From Caulobacteraceae bacterium (GTDB lineage: Bacteria; Pseudomonadota; Alphaproteobacteria; Caulobacterales; Caulobacteraceae): a stretch of 64,000 nucleotides of DNA. Each line of letters begins with the position of its first letter. Positions within the stretch are counted from its first letter, which is position 1. Below the pieces are notes generated by a model that made no database searches, had not been told where the DNA came from, and worked only from the letters and a program-made list of their open reading frames with translations. The stretch is taken from assembly GCA_947441065.1 (NCBI GenBank), contig CANESI010000001.1, forward strand, positions 62,001 to 126,000, written 5' to 3'. A program made the position numbers and the translations under genes. Shown here piece after piece: positions 26,123 to 34,173 of the stretch.

Positions 26123-26654
26123 GCCCGCGTCCTTCCCAACTGCCGTGAGGCACCAGACGCACCTGCCTGCCTCCGCTCTCATGATCTGTATCAAAGACTA
26201 TATCGAGTCGGTCGTGAGGCAGATCCTCCTCTAACCGTTCGGGCCATTCGATGAGGGCTGCGCCATCCTCGAGGGCCTCGTCTAACCCAATCTCATAGGC
26301 TTCAGACGCGCTGGTCAGCCGATAGAGGTCGAAATGCGCAAGGGGAAAGTCCGGTCCCTCATAGAACTGGACCAGGGTGAAGGTGGGGCTGGGCACGTCC
26401 TCGTCAGGTCGGGTCAAGGCCCGGATCAGGCCGCGCGCCAAGGTCGATTTTCCAGATCCGAGCGGCCCCCAAAGACAGATGGCCTCGCCGCGCATAACCT
26501 TTCCAGCCAAGGCCGCGCCCAAGGCTGTCGTGGCCTGTTCGTCGGGCAGATGGTGCCAAGGGGCGGTGGCGTTCAAACGCAAGGGTCCAAGCTGTAATCT
26601 ATCCGGCCAAAGAAAAGGGTTGATCCGGATGAAGCGGAAGGTGGCGTTCGACAT
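26112..26654 (-). CDS. tsaE: tRNA threonylcarbamoyladenosine biosynthesis ATPase TsaE
   Basis: The small ATPase needed with TsaB and TsaD to make t6A37 in ANN-decoding tRNAs. The Walker A is LWGPLGSGKSTLARGLIRAL, followed by the TsaE motifs SPTFTLVQFYE and AHFDLYRL, and ALIEWPERL. With ATG 26654 it has 180 residues, longer than the usual 150, and overlaps the upstream acyltransferase gene by 56 bases. A TTG at 26576 (LNATAPWHHLPDEQATTALG) would give a normal length and no overlap, so the start is unsettled. It begins the tsaE-amgK-murU-addB-addA-trxA run. Confidence 0.9.
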   Translation of the reverse strand: MSNATFRFIRINPFLWPDRLQLGPLRLNATAPWHHLPDEQATTALGAALAGKVMRGEAICLWGPLGSGKSTLARGLIRALTRPDEDVPSPTFTLVQFYEGPDFPLAHFDLYRLTSASEAYEIGLDEALEDGAALIEWPERLEEDLPHDRLDIVFDTDHESGGRQVRLVPHGSWEGRGLEF

Positions 26655-27465
26655 AGGCCTTGATGGCCACAGTCGCCAAGGCTGTATCGTTTCCGAGCTC
26701 ACCGGGTGGGATCAGCGGTCCGATCGTCATGCCAAATTGACCCCGGCGCTTATTGAGCAACTCATGGAACAGGGTGATGTCTCGAAGCTCACGTGAAAAT
26801 CGATTGAAGAACTGAAACAGGTGAGGATAGGGCCCCGTCAGATGGATCGGCAGGACCGGGGCGTCATATTTACGGGCCAGTGATATGGCGCTGGGCATCC
26901 AGCTTGGGTCTGAAAGTTGGCCATCAGGACCGCGCACGGCCAAGCGACCAGCGGGGAATATAACGACCGCCCGTTCGGCCTCAAAGGCCTCTTGCGCGCG
27001 TTTCAAGGTCATCCGGGCCTTTTCGCGGGTGCGTTTTTCCTCGACCCACTCGACCGGAATGAGCACATCGTCAAAGCCCGCACAGACCCTGTGAGCATCG
27101 GCATTGGCAAAGAAGCAGAGGTCTTGCCTTAAACGCCTTAGCCCATCGCGCAAGGCTACCCCGTCGGCAATGCCGGACGGATGGTTTGCGACAATCACAA
27201 CCCGGCCAGTGGTGGGCAGGCGTTCGGAATGGTTCAAGGTAACGCGGACCTGCAGCAGGTTGGCCACATGGTCCAAGGCTTCAACTCCGCCCATGCTGGC
27301 AATGGCGTCGGCCATCCGGCGCGCCTTGCGGTAGCCCAAGATTTCATAGAGGAGCGGGCGCAACATCGGCCACAGGGTGGACTGCACCAATTGCGGCGCG
27401 CGCTCATAGATGAGTTGGTCAACAATATGGCCGCGGGCCAAGGGTGCCGCCTCAAGATCGGTCAT
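26599..27465 (-). CDS. Lysophospholipid acyltransferase family protein (PlsC-like)
   Basis: A protein of about 288 residues with acyltransferase motifs: VANHPSGIADGVALRDGL supplies the His and Asp of the catalytic motif, although they are five residues apart rather than the usual four. VVIFPAGRLAVRG is the substrate-binding block and APVLPIHLTGPYP the fourth. It probably acylates a glycerolipid or an ornithine-type lipid at the inner membrane face; no specific acceptor is claimed. ATG 27465 has GAGG nine bases upstream; in-frame starts at 27492 and 27522 are less likely. The following tsaE may share its transcript. Confidence 0.78.
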   Translation of the reverse strand: MTDLEAAPLARGHIVDQLIYERAPQLVQSTLWPMLRPLLYEILGYRKARRMADAIASMGGVEALDHVANLLQVRVTLNHSERLPTTGRVVIVANHPSGIADGVALRDGLRRLRQDLCFFANADAHRVCAGFDDVLIPVEWVEEKRTREKARMTLKRAQEAFEAERAVVIFPAGRLAVRGPDGQLSDPSWMPSAISLARKYDAPVLPIHLTGPYPHLFQFFNRFSRELRDITLFHELLNKRRGQFGMTIGPLIPPGELGNDTALATVAIKAYVERHLPLHPDQPFSLAG

Positions 27466-27542
27466 GGTTTGCGCCCTCGCATCCTGAACCATAGGATGGA
27501 CTGACCCTATGTCGTTCGGCAAGGGTCAGGTTGCAAGGACTT

Positions 27543-28202
27543 TTAGCCCCGGTCGGAACCGGACATTGGCAAGGCTTCCAGCAGGGCGCGGCGAAGCAGT
27601 TCTGAGGCTTCCGCAATGATCACCTCTTGCGGCAGGCGATCTTCTTCAAACAGAAGTTCGTCGGCGCTAAAGGCAAACTCTAGGGCGATACGGACCCGTA
27701 GCCAAAGATCATCCCTAGGCGGATGACCGAGCGTCGCGCTGAAGACCGAGGTGACCATGTCGGTCATGTCCCGGTAGGTTTCAACCCGAACATGGGCCAG
27801 TTGCGGCACGGCGCGCAGGGCCTTGAGGATCCAGACCGCACCGGGTTCCTTGAGCGTTGCCGCCCAAGTGTCGCCCAGAACCGCGGGCAACCCATCGGCC
27901 AAGGCCTGCTGGCCCTTTGGCGCAGTTTCCGCCAGCCATAGGGTAAGGATGTCCGATCGCCGTGAGAGCAACCGACGGCCCAGCGCCTCGAGCACCGCAT
28001 ATTTGTCTTTGAAATAGCGATAGAGGGCCGGAGGGGTCATCCCGGCCCGTGCGCAGATTAGATTGGTGGAGATTCTCTCAATGCCAACCTCGGCCAGTAG
28101 ATCACCGGAAACGTCCAACAGGCGCTCGTAGGTCTGAACGGCACGGCCCTGTTTCGGCATTGCACGGGTACTATCCTGAAAAACTTCTGTTGAGTCGGGC
28201 AT
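27543..28202 (-). CDS. TetR family transcriptional regulator
   Basis: About 219 residues with an N-terminal TetR helix-turn-helix (YERLLDVSGDLLAEVGIERIS, split here as YERLLDVSGDLLAEVG then IERISTNLICARAGMTPPAL and YRYFKDKYAVLEALG). The C-terminal domain shows no recognised ligand signature. The ATG at 28202 has AGG six bases upstream; an in-frame GTG at 28208 is possible. It is followed after 77 bases by the acyltransferase gene on the same strand, which it might control, but that is only positional. Upstream lies a 300-base AT-richer gap. Confidence 0.85.
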   Translation of the reverse strand: MPDSTEVFQDSTRAMPKQGRAVQTYERLLDVSGDLLAEVGIERISTNLICARAGMTPPALYRYFKDKYAVLEALGRRLLSRRSDILTLWLAETAPKGQQALADGLPAVLGDTWAATLKEPGAVWILKALRAVPQLAHVRVETYRDMTDMVTSVFSATLGHPPRDDLWLRVRIALEFAFSADELLFEEDRLPQEVIIAEASELLRRALLEALPMSGSDRG

Positions 28203-28502
28203 GGACACCTCGATGCTAGCTTTTAATACCGATTTTAGAACCTATGCAAGTACAGCGATATTAACCTTTGGGGTGCGGCACTTTCGCTAATGGATAATAT
28301 ATGCAGCTTTTATGATCAATCGGAAAAGTAGCGAAAATGCCCGTTTTGGGAAAAATTCTTCAACCCCATCAATAAGTTAGTTTTCACTATCTAAATGGTC
28401 GACCTGACCGAACCTTTGCGATGATAGGGTTGGTATGAGCATTACACTGGCAAAGATCCGTTAATGGTCGCATGAAAAGAGGACGGTGGAAAAACAGTTG
28501 GC
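28203..28502. other. AT-rich intergenic gap between tetR and the CYTH-CHAD gene
   Basis: About 300 bases with no convincing gene. It is richer in A+T than the flanks and separates divergent genes, so it should hold both promoters. TTTCGCTA at 28282-28289 and TAGCGAAA at 28329-28336 form an eight-base inverted repeat 39 bases apart, which could mark two sites for one regulator. No clear -35/-10 pair was fixed. Confidence 0.5.
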
Positions 28503-29996
28503 ATGATGACGCTGAACCAACCCACGGAAATTGAACTGAAACTGGGCGTCGCTTGGTCAGATGTTGCGCAGCTTATGGCTTCGCCCATTTGGAAGGATCA
28601 GGAGCCGCGCGCCCTGACCTCAATCTATTTCGACACCGCAGATCAGCATTTGCGCCGTGCAGGTTTAACTATGCGGCTGCGTGCTGGAATCCAGACCCTC
28701 AAGGTTATCGCGCCCGAGGCTGCGGGCCTTTTTGAGCGGGCTGAGTGGGAACATCCGGTTCAGGGTGCCGCACCGGATCTGACTTTTCTGGCCCAAACCC
28801 CTTTGGCCGCGGTCGATCTGGGCGCGAATCAGTTGCGTCCCCTCTTTCTGATTCAGGTGGATCGGCGAACCGCCCTCATTAATCCCATGCCCGACTGTCA
28901 GATCGAAATGGCGCTCGATATTGGCCGGGTCCAGGCCGCTGGCCGGGTGCAGGACTTTGCCGAACTGGAATTGGAATTGATTGAGGGGCCCACGCGCGCC
29001 CTTATTGATCTGGCCTTGAGTATGGCGGCCGAGACCCGGCTTGTCGCTTCATCCCAGTCTAAGGCCGATCGGGGCTTTGCCTTGCTGGCCAATGACAACC
29101 TTTCGCCGCTTAAGGCGGAAAGTCGATTGGACCTGTCTGGCCTGAGCGTGGGTCAGGCGCTTAGCGCCATGGTCCGAGAAGGGCTTGGCCATATTTTGCA
29201 CAATGACGCCTTGGTCAGTCAGAACCGCGAGGTCGAGGCACTCCATCAGGTCCGCGTCGCCCTGCGCCGCCTCAGAGCGACCTTGGGCCTGTTTAAGGCG
29301 GTGGTAGCCGATCAGGCCTTTATCGACATGCGTGGCCGTCTTGGCGCGCTTAGCCAAACGATGGGCCGCGCGCGCGATCTGGATGTGCTGATTGCGCGGA
29401 TTGAGACCTCGGAACAGCCTTCCCCCCGTCTGCTTGAGGCCCTCATCCTTGATCGCGGTCAGGCCTATGACGAGGTCGGCCGGGTCTTGGCGTCACACGC
29501 CTATGGTCAAACCCTGTTGACGGTCATGGCTTGGGCTGAGGCCGGCGATTGGCGCCAGAGCCCTTGGTCACAAGCTGGCCTGCGTGATCAGCCCGTGTTG
29601 GATTTTGCTGACCAGGCGCTGGAACGTTTGCGCCGCAAGCTCAAGACCGATGGCAAGGACCTGACCAGCCTGCCTGCGGAGGCGCAGCATCGGGTCCGTA
29701 TTCGCGGAAAAAATTTCCGTTATGGGATGGAGCTCTTTGCCAGCCTCTATCCGGAGGGATCAGAGCGTCGTCGCCGTCTGATTGATGCGGTCAAACAGGT
29801 TCAAGATCGGTTGGGTCTGGTCAATGACCGCGCTGTGGGAGAGGCACTGCTGCGTGCCCATGGCAGCGGTCCCGCAGCCTTTGACGCCGGTCAGGCCCTT
29901 GCCAGCCTCTATGTCGGGCAGGCGGATGCAGCGCTGAAGGCGGAGCAGGCCTTGAGGCTCGCGCTGGAACTGCCTCGATTTTGGTCAAAGCCCTAG
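28503..29996 (+). CDS. CYTH and CHAD domain protein, putative inorganic triphosphatase
   Basis: A 497-residue two-domain protein. The N-terminal CYTH domain (about residues 6-200) opens with EIELKLGV, the ExExK metal/phosphate motif, and has TSIYFDTADQHLRRAGLTMRLR. The C-terminal CHAD domain (about 215-490) has ALHQVRVALRRLRATLGLFK and HRVRIRGKNFRYGMELFASLYP, with the basic His/Arg/Lys residues that bind polyphosphate. E. coli YgiF has the same arrangement and hydrolyses inorganic triphosphate. An ATG pair at 503/506 offers two starts one codon apart. Its stop overlaps the convergent ackA gene by four bases. Confidence 0.88.
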   Translation: MMTLNQPTEIELKLGVAWSDVAQLMASPIWKDQEPRALTSIYFDTADQHLRRAGLTMRLRAGIQTLKVIAPEAAGLFERAEWEHPVQGAAPDLTFLAQTPLAAVDLGANQLRPLFLIQVDRRTALINPMPDCQIEMALDIGRVQAAGRVQDFAELELELIEGPTRALIDLALSMAAETRLVASSQSKADRGFALLANDNLSPLKAESRLDLSGLSVGQALSAMVREGLGHILHNDALVSQNREVEALHQVRVALRRLRATLGLFKAVVADQAFIDMRGRLGALSQTMGRARDLDVLIARIETSEQPSPRLLEALILDRGQAYDEVGRVLASHAYGQTLLTVMAWAEAGDWRQSPWSQAGLRDQPVLDFADQALERLRRKLKTDGKDLTSLPAEAQHRVRIRGKNFRYGMELFASLYPEGSERRRRLIDAVKQVQDRLGLVNDRAVGEALLRAHGSGPAAFDAGQALASLYVGQADAALKAEQALRLALELPRFWSKP

Positions 29997-31168
29997 AGGC
30001 CGCAGAGCGCCGCCGTCTGGATGGCGATCTGGCTTTCCTCATCGGTGGGAATGATACAGAGGGCAAGGCCAGATCCTGCCGTGGACAGCACACGGTGCCC
30101 CTCTTGATTGGCCTCGGGGTCCAATGTCGCGCCCAGCCATCCGAGCCTGCGGCTAATGTCACGACGGATCGTCGGTGCATTTTCTCCGATCCCGGCGGTA
30201 AAGATCACCCCATCTAGCCCGCCCAGTTCCCCGGCCATGGCGGCGATGCCCACGGCGACGCGGCTACAAAAATAGTCCAGAGCCTGTTTGGCCAGCGGCT
30301 GATCTGAGGCCTCAAGATCGCGCACGTCCGCCGATAGGCCTGATAGGCCGAGCAGTCCTGAACGTCGATAGAGCAGGTCCTCAATCGCCTTGGCGTCCAT
30401 CCCGCGATCGGTCATCAGATAGAGCAAAACCCCCGGATCGATGGTGCCCGTGCGGGTGCCCATCGGCAGGCCATCAAGGGCCGAAAAGCCCATGGTCGTG
30501 GCGACGCTGCGCCCTTGATCGAGACCGCAGAGCGAACAGCCGGAGCCCAGATGTGCAATCACAATCTTGCCATCCGCCAGATCGGGCCGCTCTTGGCGTA
30601 GATGGGTCAAAACCGAGGCATAGGACAGGCCGTGAAAGCCATAGCGGCGAACACCCTCCTCATAGAAGTGGCGCGGCAGGGCAAAAGCTTCGGTCTCAAA
30701 GGCACGCCCCCGGTGAAAGGCCGTGTCAAAACAGGCGACATGCTGGGCCTTGGGCAGGTCCTGCTGCGCGGCCTCCAGCACCGCCAGATTTGTCGGTTGA
30801 TGCAGCGGCGCGAGGGGGGAAAGGCGCTCTATGCTGCGTAGGGCGGCGGCGTCGATCAGGCATGGACCGGCATGGTCGGCCCCGCCATGGACGATGCGAT
30901 GTCCGACCGCGACGATCTCGAGGTCGCTGTGGCGAGCCTTAAGGGCGGGCCAGAGGGCATGGAAGGCCGCTTGCGCATCGGATGGCCCTTCTCCCTTGGC
31001 CCAGTCCTGCAGGTGGTCGGCAAGGCCCGGCGCGCGAAGCCGCAAGCGCGGTCCCACGCCGAACCGCTCGATCACCCCGTCGCCCAGGCGGCGATGGGGC
31101 GCTGCCGCCTCAAACAGGGCGACCTTGAGCGTCGCCGAGCCGCCATTGAGGGTGAGGATGGCCTTCAA
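29993..31168 (-). CDS. ackA: Acetate kinase (acetate/propionate family)
   Basis: A protein of about 391 residues that interconverts acyl phosphate and acid with ADP/ATP. It shows LTLNGGSATLKVALFE at the N-terminus, VGHRIVHGG, the catalytic Asp in CFDTAFHR, HLGSGCSLCGLDQGRSVATT, and the ATP-site FTAGIGENAPTIRR. TTG 31168 is chosen since it places LKAILTLN at the start and lies five bases from the end of the upstream gene, with AAAGG about nine bases before it; longer frames run into that upstream gene. AckA normally works with a phosphate acetyl- or butyryltransferase, but the gene in that place is a chimera that lacks half of that enzyme. Confidence 0.9.
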   Translation of the reverse strand: MKAILTLNGGSATLKVALFEAAAPHRRLGDGVIERFGVGPRLRLRAPGLADHLQDWAKGEGPSDAQAAFHALWPALKARHSDLEIVAVGHRIVHGGADHAGPCLIDAAALRSIERLSPLAPLHQPTNLAVLEAAQQDLPKAQHVACFDTAFHRGRAFETEAFALPRHFYEEGVRRYGFHGLSYASVLTHLRQERPDLADGKIVIAHLGSGCSLCGLDQGRSVATTMGFSALDGLPMGTRTGTIDPGVLLYLMTDRGMDAKAIEDLLYRRSGLLGLSGLSADVRDLEASDQPLAKQALDYFCSRVAVGIAAMAGELGGLDGVIFTAGIGENAPTIRRDISRRLGWLGATLDPEANQEGHRVLSTAGSGLALCIIPTDEESQIAIQTAALCGL

Positions 31169-31172
31169 GGGC

Positions 31173-31997
31173 TTAAGCCTTTTGTGACGGCTGAGCTTCA
31201 GCCAGAGCCGCCCAATCCATGATCGGCCGGCCTGTTCGCCGCCAGACATCATAGGCCAGAGCCACCGCGCAGGAGGCGACCCGTACGGCGGCATCGTCAG
31301 AGCGACTGGTCAGGATGATCGGCACACTCGCGCCGACCACAAGTCCCGCAGAGGCCGCGCCACTGACAAAGATCAGGTCCTTGGCCAGCATGTTTCCGGC
31401 CTCGATATTGGGGACGATCAGCACGTCGGCATGGCCTGCAACCCGCAGGTCCAAGCCCTTCGCCATGGCCGCTTCGAGGTTCATGGCATTGTCCATCGCC
31501 AGCGGCCCATCAACGATGCCGCCCGCTAGCCGGGCCTTAGAGGTGCGCTGGACGACATAGAAGGAGGTGGCGATCAGGACGTTGCCGCCAAAGGCGAAGA
31601 TCACGCCAGAGGTATGCAATGGCCGCAAGCGGCCAAAGTTCAACCAGCCAAATTCGGGGAAATAGAACAGGTTGGGCCAGGACAACTGCGAGGCGATGAC
31701 CACCCCGACCAGCATGCCGACGACGCCCCAGAAGAGCGAGGCAATGACCCCGGCGCGGATGGCGCCATCTTCATATCTGTCCTCGCTCTGAACAAATCGG
31801 CCCGCCGAACTGCCAATCACCAGAACGGCTAAGGCCGCAGTAAAGGCGGCCATGAAGATATAGGCGTGAACCATGAACCTTGGGTCGTGGGTTCGGGAAG
31901 CCATGAAGATGGTGAGGAAGACACCAAGGCCGAGAAGGCCAGCGAGGAGACCCGCGCCAGAAGTAGCTGTGCCCTTGGGCCCGTCGATTGCCGCCAT
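31173..31997 (-). CDS. In-frame chimera: N-terminal CcoN fragment fused to C-terminal phosphate acetyl/butyryltransferase fragment
   Basis: The 274-residue frame joins two unrelated proteins. Residues 1 to about 158 look like the start of cytochrome cbb3 oxidase subunit I: HDPRFMVHAYIFMAA, SLFWGVVGMLVGVVIASQL, FGRLRPLHTSGVIFAFGGNV (with the conserved His128) and TSFYVVQRTSKARLAGG. Residues about 160-274 look like the end of a phosphate acetyl- or butyryltransferase: GGIVDGPLAMDNAMNLEAAM, ADVLIVPNIEAGNMLAKDL and VPIILTSRSDDAAVRVASCA. The join is within the GG at about 31518-31523. Most oxidase helices, including later heme and copper ligands, and the first half of the transferase are missing, so neither activity is expected. 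GGGGAG precedes the ATG. It may be a deletion fusion or an assembly error. Confidence 0.85.
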   Translation of the reverse strand: MAAIDGPKGTATSGAGLLAGLLGLGVFLTIFMASRTHDPRFMVHAYIFMAAFTAALAVLVIGSSAGRFVQSEDRYEDGAIRAGVIASLFWGVVGMLVGVVIASQLSWPNLFYFPEFGWLNFGRLRPLHTSGVIFAFGGNVLIATSFYVVQRTSKARLAGGIVDGPLAMDNAMNLEAAMAKGLDLRVAGHADVLIVPNIEAGNMLAKDLIFVSGAASAGLVVGASVPIILTSRSDDAAVRVASCAVALAYDVWRRTGRPIMDWAALAEAQPSQKA

Positions 31998-32240
31998 TGT
32001 GCTCCCCCGCCATGCGCAAGACTGACGTGAAGTGACAGCCTAAAATCCCTATTTCATTTATGGGTAATTGCCGCTATCCGACGAGTTGTCGCACATGCGG
32101 TTTTGCCCGCGTGGATTGCCCTGCCGAGCGGGTGCGTTGAGCGTCCATTTGACACGCAGCTTGGGCGCGGTGTTGGCGCTAGGCTGGCCTTTGAAACAGG
32201 GCCCCGGCAGTTGCTCGGGTGGGTTCGAATGAGGGTGTAG

Positions 32241-32516
32241 ATGGCCGTGAACAGACATAAAATGCCATATATCAAGGCCCATCGCGCGCGCACCCTATTG
32301 TCTATCAGCCTTCTGACGGGGGGTCTGATCAGTGCGTTAGCCGCAGTGATGGGTGCCAAAGCGGGCGCGATGCCGGTCGGTTGGTGTTTGGGCGCGACGC
32401 CGATGACCTGGCTATCAATGGTCGGGCACTGTCCCTGGTGCTACAGCGCATTGGCCCTGATCGGCGCGTCCGCAGCCCTTTGGCCCGAGCCCATGCGGGT
32501 GCCCATAAAGATTTAG
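32241..32516 (+). CDS. Small membrane protein with HCPWCY motif, function unknown
   Basis: A 91-residue frame with GAGGG five bases before the ATG. It has two hydrophobic segments (LLSISLLTGGLISALAAVMG and, later, ALALIGASAALWPEP) and between them MTWLSMVGHCPWCYSALALI, a CxxC pair preceded by His. Similar short proteins with an HCxWC motif exist in Caulobacterales as far as I recall, with no function assigned. The motif could bind a metal or heme or be redox-active; that is speculation. It diverges from the ccoN-like gene. Confidence 0.6.
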   Translation: MAVNRHKMPYIKAHRARTLLSISLLTGGLISALAAVMGAKAGAMPVGWCLGATPMTWLSMVGHCPWCYSALALIGASAALWPEPMRVPIKI

Positions 32517-32571
32517 GCCCCGAACGGTGAGGTTCAGGGCCAATCTATCTTCTTCTTCGAGAGGGTGAGGT

Positions 32572-34173
32572 CTAGAACTCTTCCCAGCCCTCGTCAGAGG
32601 CTGACGGCGCAGGTTTGCGGACCGGTGCAGGGGCTGCCGAGGGCCGACTGGCAAAGGTCGGTGCAGGCCGAGCCGCGGGTCTGCTGGGCGCGCGGCTGGT
32701 CGCAAGGGTGGCCACTTCACCATAGTTAAACCGGCCAATCAGGGCCTGAAGGTTGGTGGTCTCGTCGGCCAACTGGCGGCTGGCGGCGGTGGATTGTTCG
32801 ACCATGGCGGCGTTCTGCTGGGTCACCTGATCCATCTGGACGACGGTGGTATTGACCTCTTGCAGGCCGATGGACTGTTCTTCGGCGGAGGCGGCGATCT
32901 GGGAGACCAGATCATTGATCTCGGCGACCTCTTCAACGATCCGCTTCAAGGCCTGACCGGTCTGACCCACCAGATCGACGCCCGCAGCGACTTGACGCGA
33001 ACTTTCGCTAATCAGGCCCTTGATCTCCTTAGCGGCTTCGGCAGAGCGCTGAGCCAAGGCCCGCACTTCGGAGGCGACAACGGCAAAGCCTCGGCCCGCA
33101 TCACCGGCGCGGGCAGCCTCGACCCCGGCATTGAGGGCCAGAAGGTTGGTTTGGAAGGCGATCTCGTCAATGACGCCGATGATCTGAGTGATCTGACGCG
33201 AAGAGGATTCAATTTCGCTCATGGCCGAGACGGCTTGGCTGACGATGACGCCCGACTGTTCGGCGCCCGTCTTGGCCGAATTGACGGCCCGTTTGGCCTG
33301 GATCGCCCCTTCGGACGAGCGACGCACCGTCGAGGTGATCTCGCCCAGAGCGGCGGCGGCCTGTTCCAAACTGGCGGCTTGGTTTTCGGTGCGGCGCGAC
33401 AGGTCGTCTGACGCCATCGAGATTTCGTTGGTGCCAGACCGGATCCCGTCCGACGCTTGGCCAATCACCGACATGGTGGTCTGGAGTTGCTCCATGGCAC
33501 CGTTAAAGTCGTCTTGAAGCTTGGTATATTGTGGCGCGAATTTTTGGGTCAGGCGGGTGGTGAGGTCACCGTTCGATAGGTCTGCCAAAGCCTTGGCCAG
33601 GGCCTCGACCAGCGCCGACTGCTGTTGCTCAGCCTCTGCAAGTGCGACTTCCTTGGCCTTGCGCTCATCATCAAGCGCTTCGATATAGATCGAGATGCTG
33701 AAGTCCATGTCGAGCATGACAGCCTTGATCAGGGCAACGATCGGATCGGCCAGATCCGCATCCTTGAGCGGCTTGGTCAGCAGGCCGCCCTTGGGTAGGC
33801 GCTCCTTCAAGGTGGCGCGGATCAACTGTTCAGTGATGAGGGCATAGCCGCCGATGTACCAGCGGGGCTCTAGGCCGATGCGGGCATGAACATTTCCAAT
33901 GGTGCGCACGCTGCGCACATAGTCGTCATTGAAATCGGCGGAGGAAATATTGCCCCAGTGGCGCTGTTGGCGTGTACCGGCACTTTCGATGGCGCGGTCG
34001 TCGCTGAAGAAGCGTTTGACCTCTGGATATTGCCGAACCTGACCATAGAAGGTCTCGAGCGCGCCCGGTAATGACCGCTCAATGATGGGCTTGATTGATC
34101 GCAGGGCCCGGCCACTGGGTTCATCAAGGCGCATGAAGCTCATGCGCTGATTAAGGTCGTAATTGGTGGTCAT
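32572..34173 (-). CDS. Globin-coupled methyl-accepting chemotaxis protein
   Basis: A 533-residue soluble chemoreceptor without transmembrane helices. Residues 1 to about 165 form a protoglobin sensor (KRFFSDDRAIESAGTRQQRH, then NVHARIGLEPRWYIGGYA; His96 is the expected heme ligand), so it probably senses oxygen or another gas. A HAMP-like linker (LSNGDLTTRLTQKFAPQY) leads to the methyl-accepting signalling domain, whose hairpin tip reads IDEIAFQTNLLALNAGVEAA with GRGFAVVASEVRALAQRSAE after it. The C-terminus ends GWEEF, a pentapeptide of the xWxxF type that tethers CheR or CheB. It probably connects to the chemotaxis array in the cytoplasm and directs aerotaxis. Confidence 0.93.
   Translation of the reverse strand: MTTNYDLNQRMSFMRLDEPSGRALRSIKPIIERSLPGALETFYGQVRQYPEVKRFFSDDRAIESAGTRQQRHWGNISSADFNDDYVRSVRTIGNVHARIGLEPRWYIGGYALITEQLIRATLKERLPKGGLLTKPLKDADLADPIVALIKAVMLDMDFSISIYIEALDDERKAKEVALAEAEQQQSALVEALAKALADLSNGDLTTRLTQKFAPQYTKLQDDFNGAMEQLQTTMSVIGQASDGIRSGTNEISMASDDLSRRTENQAASLEQAAAALGEITSTVRRSSEGAIQAKRAVNSAKTGAEQSGVIVSQAVSAMSEIESSSRQITQIIGVIDEIAFQTNLLALNAGVEAARAGDAGRGFAVVASEVRALAQRSAEAAKEIKGLISESSRQVAAGVDLVGQTGQALKRIVEEVAEINDLVSQIAASAEEQSIGLQEVNTTVVQMDQVTQQNAAMVEQSTAASRQLADETTNLQALIGRFNYGEVATLATSRAPSRPAARPAPTFASRPSAAPAPVRKPAPSASDEGWEEF

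Follow-up and report, generated by a model that had tools for sequence, protein, structure and literature searches.

The locus described here lies in a 64,000-nucleotide stretch of DNA (the window) from the draft genome of an uncultured Caulobacteraceae genus (2.92 Mb, 83 contigs, 97.48% complete), and the 262,887-bp contig that carries the window extends far beyond both sides of the site. On the minus strand, a single reading frame that is open from ATG to TAA joins the N-terminus of CcoN, subunit I of the cbb3-type cytochrome oxidase, to the C-terminus of a phosphate acetyl/butyryltransferase (Ptb), and it leads into the acetate kinase gene ackA. The features of the locus and the evidence for each are collected in Table 1.

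Table 1. Features at and around the join between ccoN and ptb, in window coordinates.
Feature	Position	Strand	Description and basis
CYTH-CHAD protein, beyond ackA	28503..29996	+	Synteny: same place in G001, G002 and G006
ackA, acetate kinase, intact	29993..31168	-	391 aa; PF00871, 335.9 bits; frame and length
Fused ORF, CcoN N-terminus and Ptb C-terminus	31173..31997	-	274 aa; reading frame, Pfam, NCBIfam
ptb 3' remnant (phosphate acetyl/butyryltransferase)	31173..31523	-	Last 116 codons and stop
Join core GGCGGCATCG, Gly-Gly-Ile codons	31514..31523	-	ccoN-like to the left, ptb-like to the right
ccoN 5' remnant (cbb3 oxidase subunit I)	31524..31997	-	158 codons
Protoglobin-type chemotaxis receptor, upstream of ccoN	32572..34173	-	PF11563, PF00015; synteny

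Profile searches placed the two halves in their families. Pfam COX1 matched residues 82-157 of the fused ORF with 52.7 bits (cut-off 34.8), and Pfam PTA_PTB (PF01515) matched residues 156-244 with 50.8 bits (cut-off 24), at profile positions 227-316 of 319. The NCBIfam ccoN model TIGR00780 matched residues 78-162 (99.3 bits, profile positions 6-91 of 474), far from its whole-protein cut-off of 583.15. NCBIfam phosphate acetyl/butyryltransferase models matched the C-terminal part, NF006045 doing so at residues 154-256 (positions 361-463 of 467), and the best of these models gave 146.8 bits against a cut-off of 282, below what is asked of a full-length protein. Residues 1-162 were 93% identical to CcoN of three congeners (G001, G002 and G006), and residues 152-274 were 88-91% identical to their Ptb. 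In sequence searches against solved structures, cbb3 subunit I (6xkw) matched residues 22-163, and phosphate butyryltransferase (7vg9) matched residues 151-246 with chain residues 219-314 of 321. Both halves are far beyond chance matches. For comparison, the intact genes of G002 have 559 codons (ccoN, which passes TIGR00780) and 340 codons (ptb). The first-pass annotation, which had read the first ~158 residues as CcoN and the last ~115 as a phosphate acyltransferase, agrees with the Pfam and NCBIfam matches and the congener identities; its further reading of an open frame that leads into ackA, with the rest of both genes absent, agrees with the ORF, the profiles and the ackA ORF downstream.

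The chemotaxis receptor gene was also found beside ccoN in G002 and G006, and its end was found there in G001. Its protoglobin domain is N-terminal, and the receptor, whose gene adjoins the proposed deletion scar, perhaps serves as an oxygen sensor. A small ORF at 32241-32516, divergent from ccoN, encodes 91 residues with the motif GHCPWCY and has no Pfam match; its counterpart in G002 lies at L038:17097-17471, and G001 is without this stretch, its alignments skipping 32124-32500. Upstream of ccoN (31998-32571), no FNR/FixK-type box was found at one mismatch or fewer, and two-mismatch matches only were seen. Across the window (1-64000), the pattern TTGAYNNNNRTCAA was found 15 times at one mismatch or fewer versus 3.56 expected, a count that none of 100 shuffles reached, and none of the 15 matches sits upstream of ccoN. 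Along 26599-29996, the nearest relative by synonymous distance shifts, the acyltransferase and TetR genes being nearer to G001 and the CHAD gene nearer to G006, a pattern suggestive of homologous recombination between the species concerned.

The genus set comprised seven genomes, including the one analyzed here. In G002, the gene order is ccoN, ccoO, ccoP, ccoG, ccoH, ccoI, ptb and ackA; ccoH was named by position, without an NCBIfam hit at the threshold used, and ccoI, which encodes a copper P-type ATPase, was likewise named by position. Searches with the G002 proteins recovered this arrangement in G001 and G004, each time on a single contig and with ccoN and ptb on the same strand, and also in G006, where it is divided between two contigs, both of which end inside ccoO or beside it. 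The distance from the Gly-Gly of ccoN to the Gly-Gly of ptb was 8102 bp in G001, 8099 bp in G002 and 7911 bp in G004. This spacing of 7.9-8.1 kb, with cbb3 genes between, fits the earlier suggestion that cbb3 and pta-ackA genes can be neighbours. On both sides of the join, the DNA of the window was ~82-91% identical to G001, G002 and G006, in the last case on two contigs. The two parent genes are syntenic neighbours that lie near each other on the same strand in G001, G002 and G004 (in G006 over two contigs), within matching flanks. The first-pass annotation had proposed that a misassembly would be revealed by relatives in which both genes are complete and the flanks match; such relatives were found, but they do not separate the two possibilities, because a deletion and a misassembly both predict them.

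The composition of this region varies elsewhere. In G005 (L043:5932-9752), six cbb3 genes are intact and ccoI is followed directly by the CHAD gene, ptb-ackA being absent from between them, and a search of this genome with the fused protein found no Ptb half. In four further genomes of the family, matches to the ccoN half and the ptb half lie ~2.6-11 kb apart on opposite strands (G134:C18, G100:C5, G168:C126 and G018:C23), and the neighbourhood of ccoN and ptb may accordingly recur in the family.

Around the join, the window reads, in the ccoN sense, ...CGGCTAGCG GGCGGCATCG TTGATGGG..., and the DNA alignment to G001, G002 and G006 breaks at 31514-31525. To the left of the core, 33-35 of 40 bases are those of ccoN of these three congeners, versus 9-12 of 40 for their ptb; from the core rightward, 35 of 40 bases are those of ptb, versus 19-20 of 40 for ccoN. 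Gly-Gly-Ile is encoded at this point in both parent genes of the relatives, as the first-pass annotation had anticipated in placing the join in a Gly-Gly that either family could supply. When ccoN and ptb of one genome were compared over 40 bp on each side of the join, the longest in-register identical run was 7 bases in G001, 5 in G002, 4 in G006, 4 in G004 and 5 in G018, and the longest word common to the two genes within ~400 bp of the two points was 9-10 bp in four genomes. The most that fits for the parents in our own genome, if both kept the residues beside Gly-Gly-Ile, is a shared word of ~12 bp, and the microhomology at the join, as judged from the relatives, would be ~4-12 bp. De Bruijn assemblers work with words of at least 21 bases. 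Because the word at the join is shorter than these, the join is no ordinary graph error; a microhomology of such a length would not normally mislead a k-mer assembler, which favours a real molecule, either genomic DNA or a library chimera.

The fused arrangement was found in one genome only. Among 159 genomes of the family, 94 had a match to the fused protein and 65 had none, and a single match that spanned both halves occurred only in our own genome; the same was true of a narrower set of 41 genomes, our own included, 30 of which had a match. The exact 26-base word across the join had no match in viral contigs. Literature searches turned up nothing on this case, which is weak evidence.

The missing genes were found nowhere else in the assembly. 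When the eight G002 proteins were searched against 20 kb of the contig, the only matches were ccoN residues 1-161, ptb residues 219-340 and ackA, and the operon partners ccoO and ccoP were absent from these 20 kb. The 8151-bp stretch of G002 had as its sole match in the whole of our genome a 38-bp piece at the join. For ccoO, no match was found in our genome, although five of the seven genus genomes were positive, the other negative being G003 (63% complete); CcoP of G002 also had no match in our genome, in a search that was run without a positive control. A second copy of the cbb3 oxidase or of Ptb elsewhere in the genome was looked for by protein and by DNA and was not found. In the search of the genome for intact ccoN and ptb, which the first-pass annotation had recommended, the sole other COX1 (haem-copper oxidase) match is CtaD, of the aa3 type, beside genes that read as CtaB and subunit II, and the sole other PF01515 match is the tail of a NADP malic enzyme. 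The search for alternative oxidases covered the COX1 and bd families, and cytochrome bd subunit I, a possible replacement, was absent from our genome and present in one of the seven genus genomes. Phosphoketolase, as a source or user of acetyl phosphate for AckA, and a PduL-type transacylase were each found in none of the seven. Provided that the assembly is correct, the genome has lost both cbb3 and Ptb, which leaves AckA without its usual partner.

We consider it probable, and the best explanation of these results, that a single recent deletion of ~8.1 kb at a short microhomology joined ccoN to ptb. By the gene lengths of G002, such a deletion would have taken out ccoO, ccoP, ccoG, ccoH and ccoI entirely, together with ~400 codons from the end of ccoN and ~224 codons from the start of ptb, joining the two genes where both encode Gly-Gly-Ile, and the frame would have been kept by chance, one time in three. 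The product would consist of about four membrane helices and one third of a phosphotransacylase. Among the missing parts would be the haem b3/CuB ligands of CcoN and some of the active site of the transacylase; neither activity is therefore expected of the remnant, which is predicted to be inactive. The start of ackA is probably the TTG at 31168, just past the stop of the fused ORF (31173-31175), and translation of ackA may thus be fed by the remnant; the open frame may still bring ribosomes into ackA, which would place this gene behind the former ccoN promoter. It is improbable, in our estimation, that the in-frame fusion is real and expressed and sustains translation of ackA from what was once the cbb3 promoter, with acetate kinase under low-oxygen control; if this were true, the loss of a high-affinity oxidase and a phosphotransacylase in one step would have put acetate kinase under such control. 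The cell would depend on its aa3 oxidase, and a phosphotransacylase for AckA was not found in the genome beyond the malic-enzyme domain.

The age of the event was approached through the codons of the remnants. Among our genome, G001, G006 and G002, a codon was scored as private to one genome where the other three agree. Private nonsynonymous and synonymous codons in our genome numbered 3:3 in the ccoN remnant and 2:5 in the ptb remnant, while the three relatives summed gave 6:29 and 3:21 in the same parts. The pooled contrast (5:8 versus 9:50) was not significant (Fisher p = 0.11), nor was the pooled contrast for ackA (10:15 versus 16:51, p = 0.19). The frame is open, and no significant signal was found of relaxed selection, which would have marked the deletion as real and older. 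Unconstrained drift yields mostly nonsynonymous changes, and five or fewer nonsynonymous changes of 13 fall short of what is expected if the remnants had drifted neutrally along the entire branch (p = 0.012; the test used a neutral nonsynonymous fraction of 0.72, the site fractions counted being 0.74 and 0.73). Private amino-acid changes numbered 4 in our genome versus 3, 3 and 3 in the CcoN half, and 2 versus 1, 4 and 1 in the Ptb half. For this count, 17 loci were excluded beforehand (our own copies and the repeat or short copies from G001, G002, G004, G005, G006 and G018), rows with less than 45% identity or at least a quarter gaps were removed and duplicates were collapsed into one, so that 26 and 61 distant rows remained. 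Constraint thus acted on the remnants through most of the branch, and therefore the deletion is young, or it is not real; an artefact would leave remnants that are equally undecayed.

The synteny fits the deletion that the first-pass annotation had guessed, and the artefact that it named as the alternative is unlikely, though it keeps appreciable weight. By this account, the join was produced by misassembly or by a chimera in the library, and the intervening 8.1 kb is part of the real genome although neither assembly nor binning captured it. The genome is an incomplete draft in many contigs, four congeners that carry both genes (G001, G002, G004 and G006) are intact at this point, the join recurs in no second genome of the family, and both remnants are about as constrained as intact genes, all of which would suit an artefact. 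However, the missing stretch was found on no contig of the genome, the shortness of the word at the join speaks against a k-mer misjoin, so that a chimeric molecule would have had to prevail in the assembly, and the join is in frame, as an artefact would give one time in three. The analysis shows that the genes are missing from the assembly, that the flanks are syntenic, and where and in which frame the join lies; the presence of the join in cells, its origin, the loss of function and the promoter effect are what we infer.

A deletion carried by part of the population, in which case the assembler would have taken the shortened variant as the consensus of a strain mixture, differs from the preferred reading in nothing but how frequent the deletion is. 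Such a mixture would fit a very young event and a genus in which the content of the module varies, as in G005, but the genome yielded no second contig that carries the missing genes, though such a contig might be unbinned, and we regard this account as having little probability. Still harder to credit is a functional new protein, in which a third of a phosphotransacylase, anchored in the membrane, is kept by selection. The frame is open and the codons look constrained, but a young event accounts for the open frame; about two thirds of Ptb are missing (7vg9 aligns only from its residue 219), the scores stay well below the whole-protein cut-offs of NCBIfam, and no other of the 159 family genomes has the fusion. 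Nothing found in this analysis suggests a working new protein, and a functional fusion is unlikely.

Either reading is an ordinary one, gene loss or a chimera, with no new protein architecture. If the deletion of ~8.1 kb is real, one event at a short homology deprived this lineage of both its high-affinity terminal oxidase and the Ptb-AckA route, and the loss of a low-oxygen module has been caught almost in the act. Caution is also warranted, as an annotation pipeline could label the ORF as CcoN or as a phosphotransacylase and so credit the genome with functions that are absent.

The proposed deletion resembles RecA-independent deletions between short direct repeats in bacteria, for example in E. 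coli K12 (PMC5426353). In such deletions, the DNA that separates two short matching words is lost and one copy of the word is kept at the join; the proposed deletion differs in that the match at this join, as estimated from relatives, would be very short. Compared with known CcoN proteins (TIGR00780), the fused ORF keeps the stretch FGRLRPLHTSGVIFAFGGN within residues 1 to ~160 but lacks the ~400 later residues and is a fragment. Likewise, it is without the first ~224 residues of a phosphate acetyl/butyryltransferase (PF01515; NF006045, NF008852), whereas its C-terminal remnant of that family sits upstream of ackA, just as the intact gene does in G001, G002 and G006.
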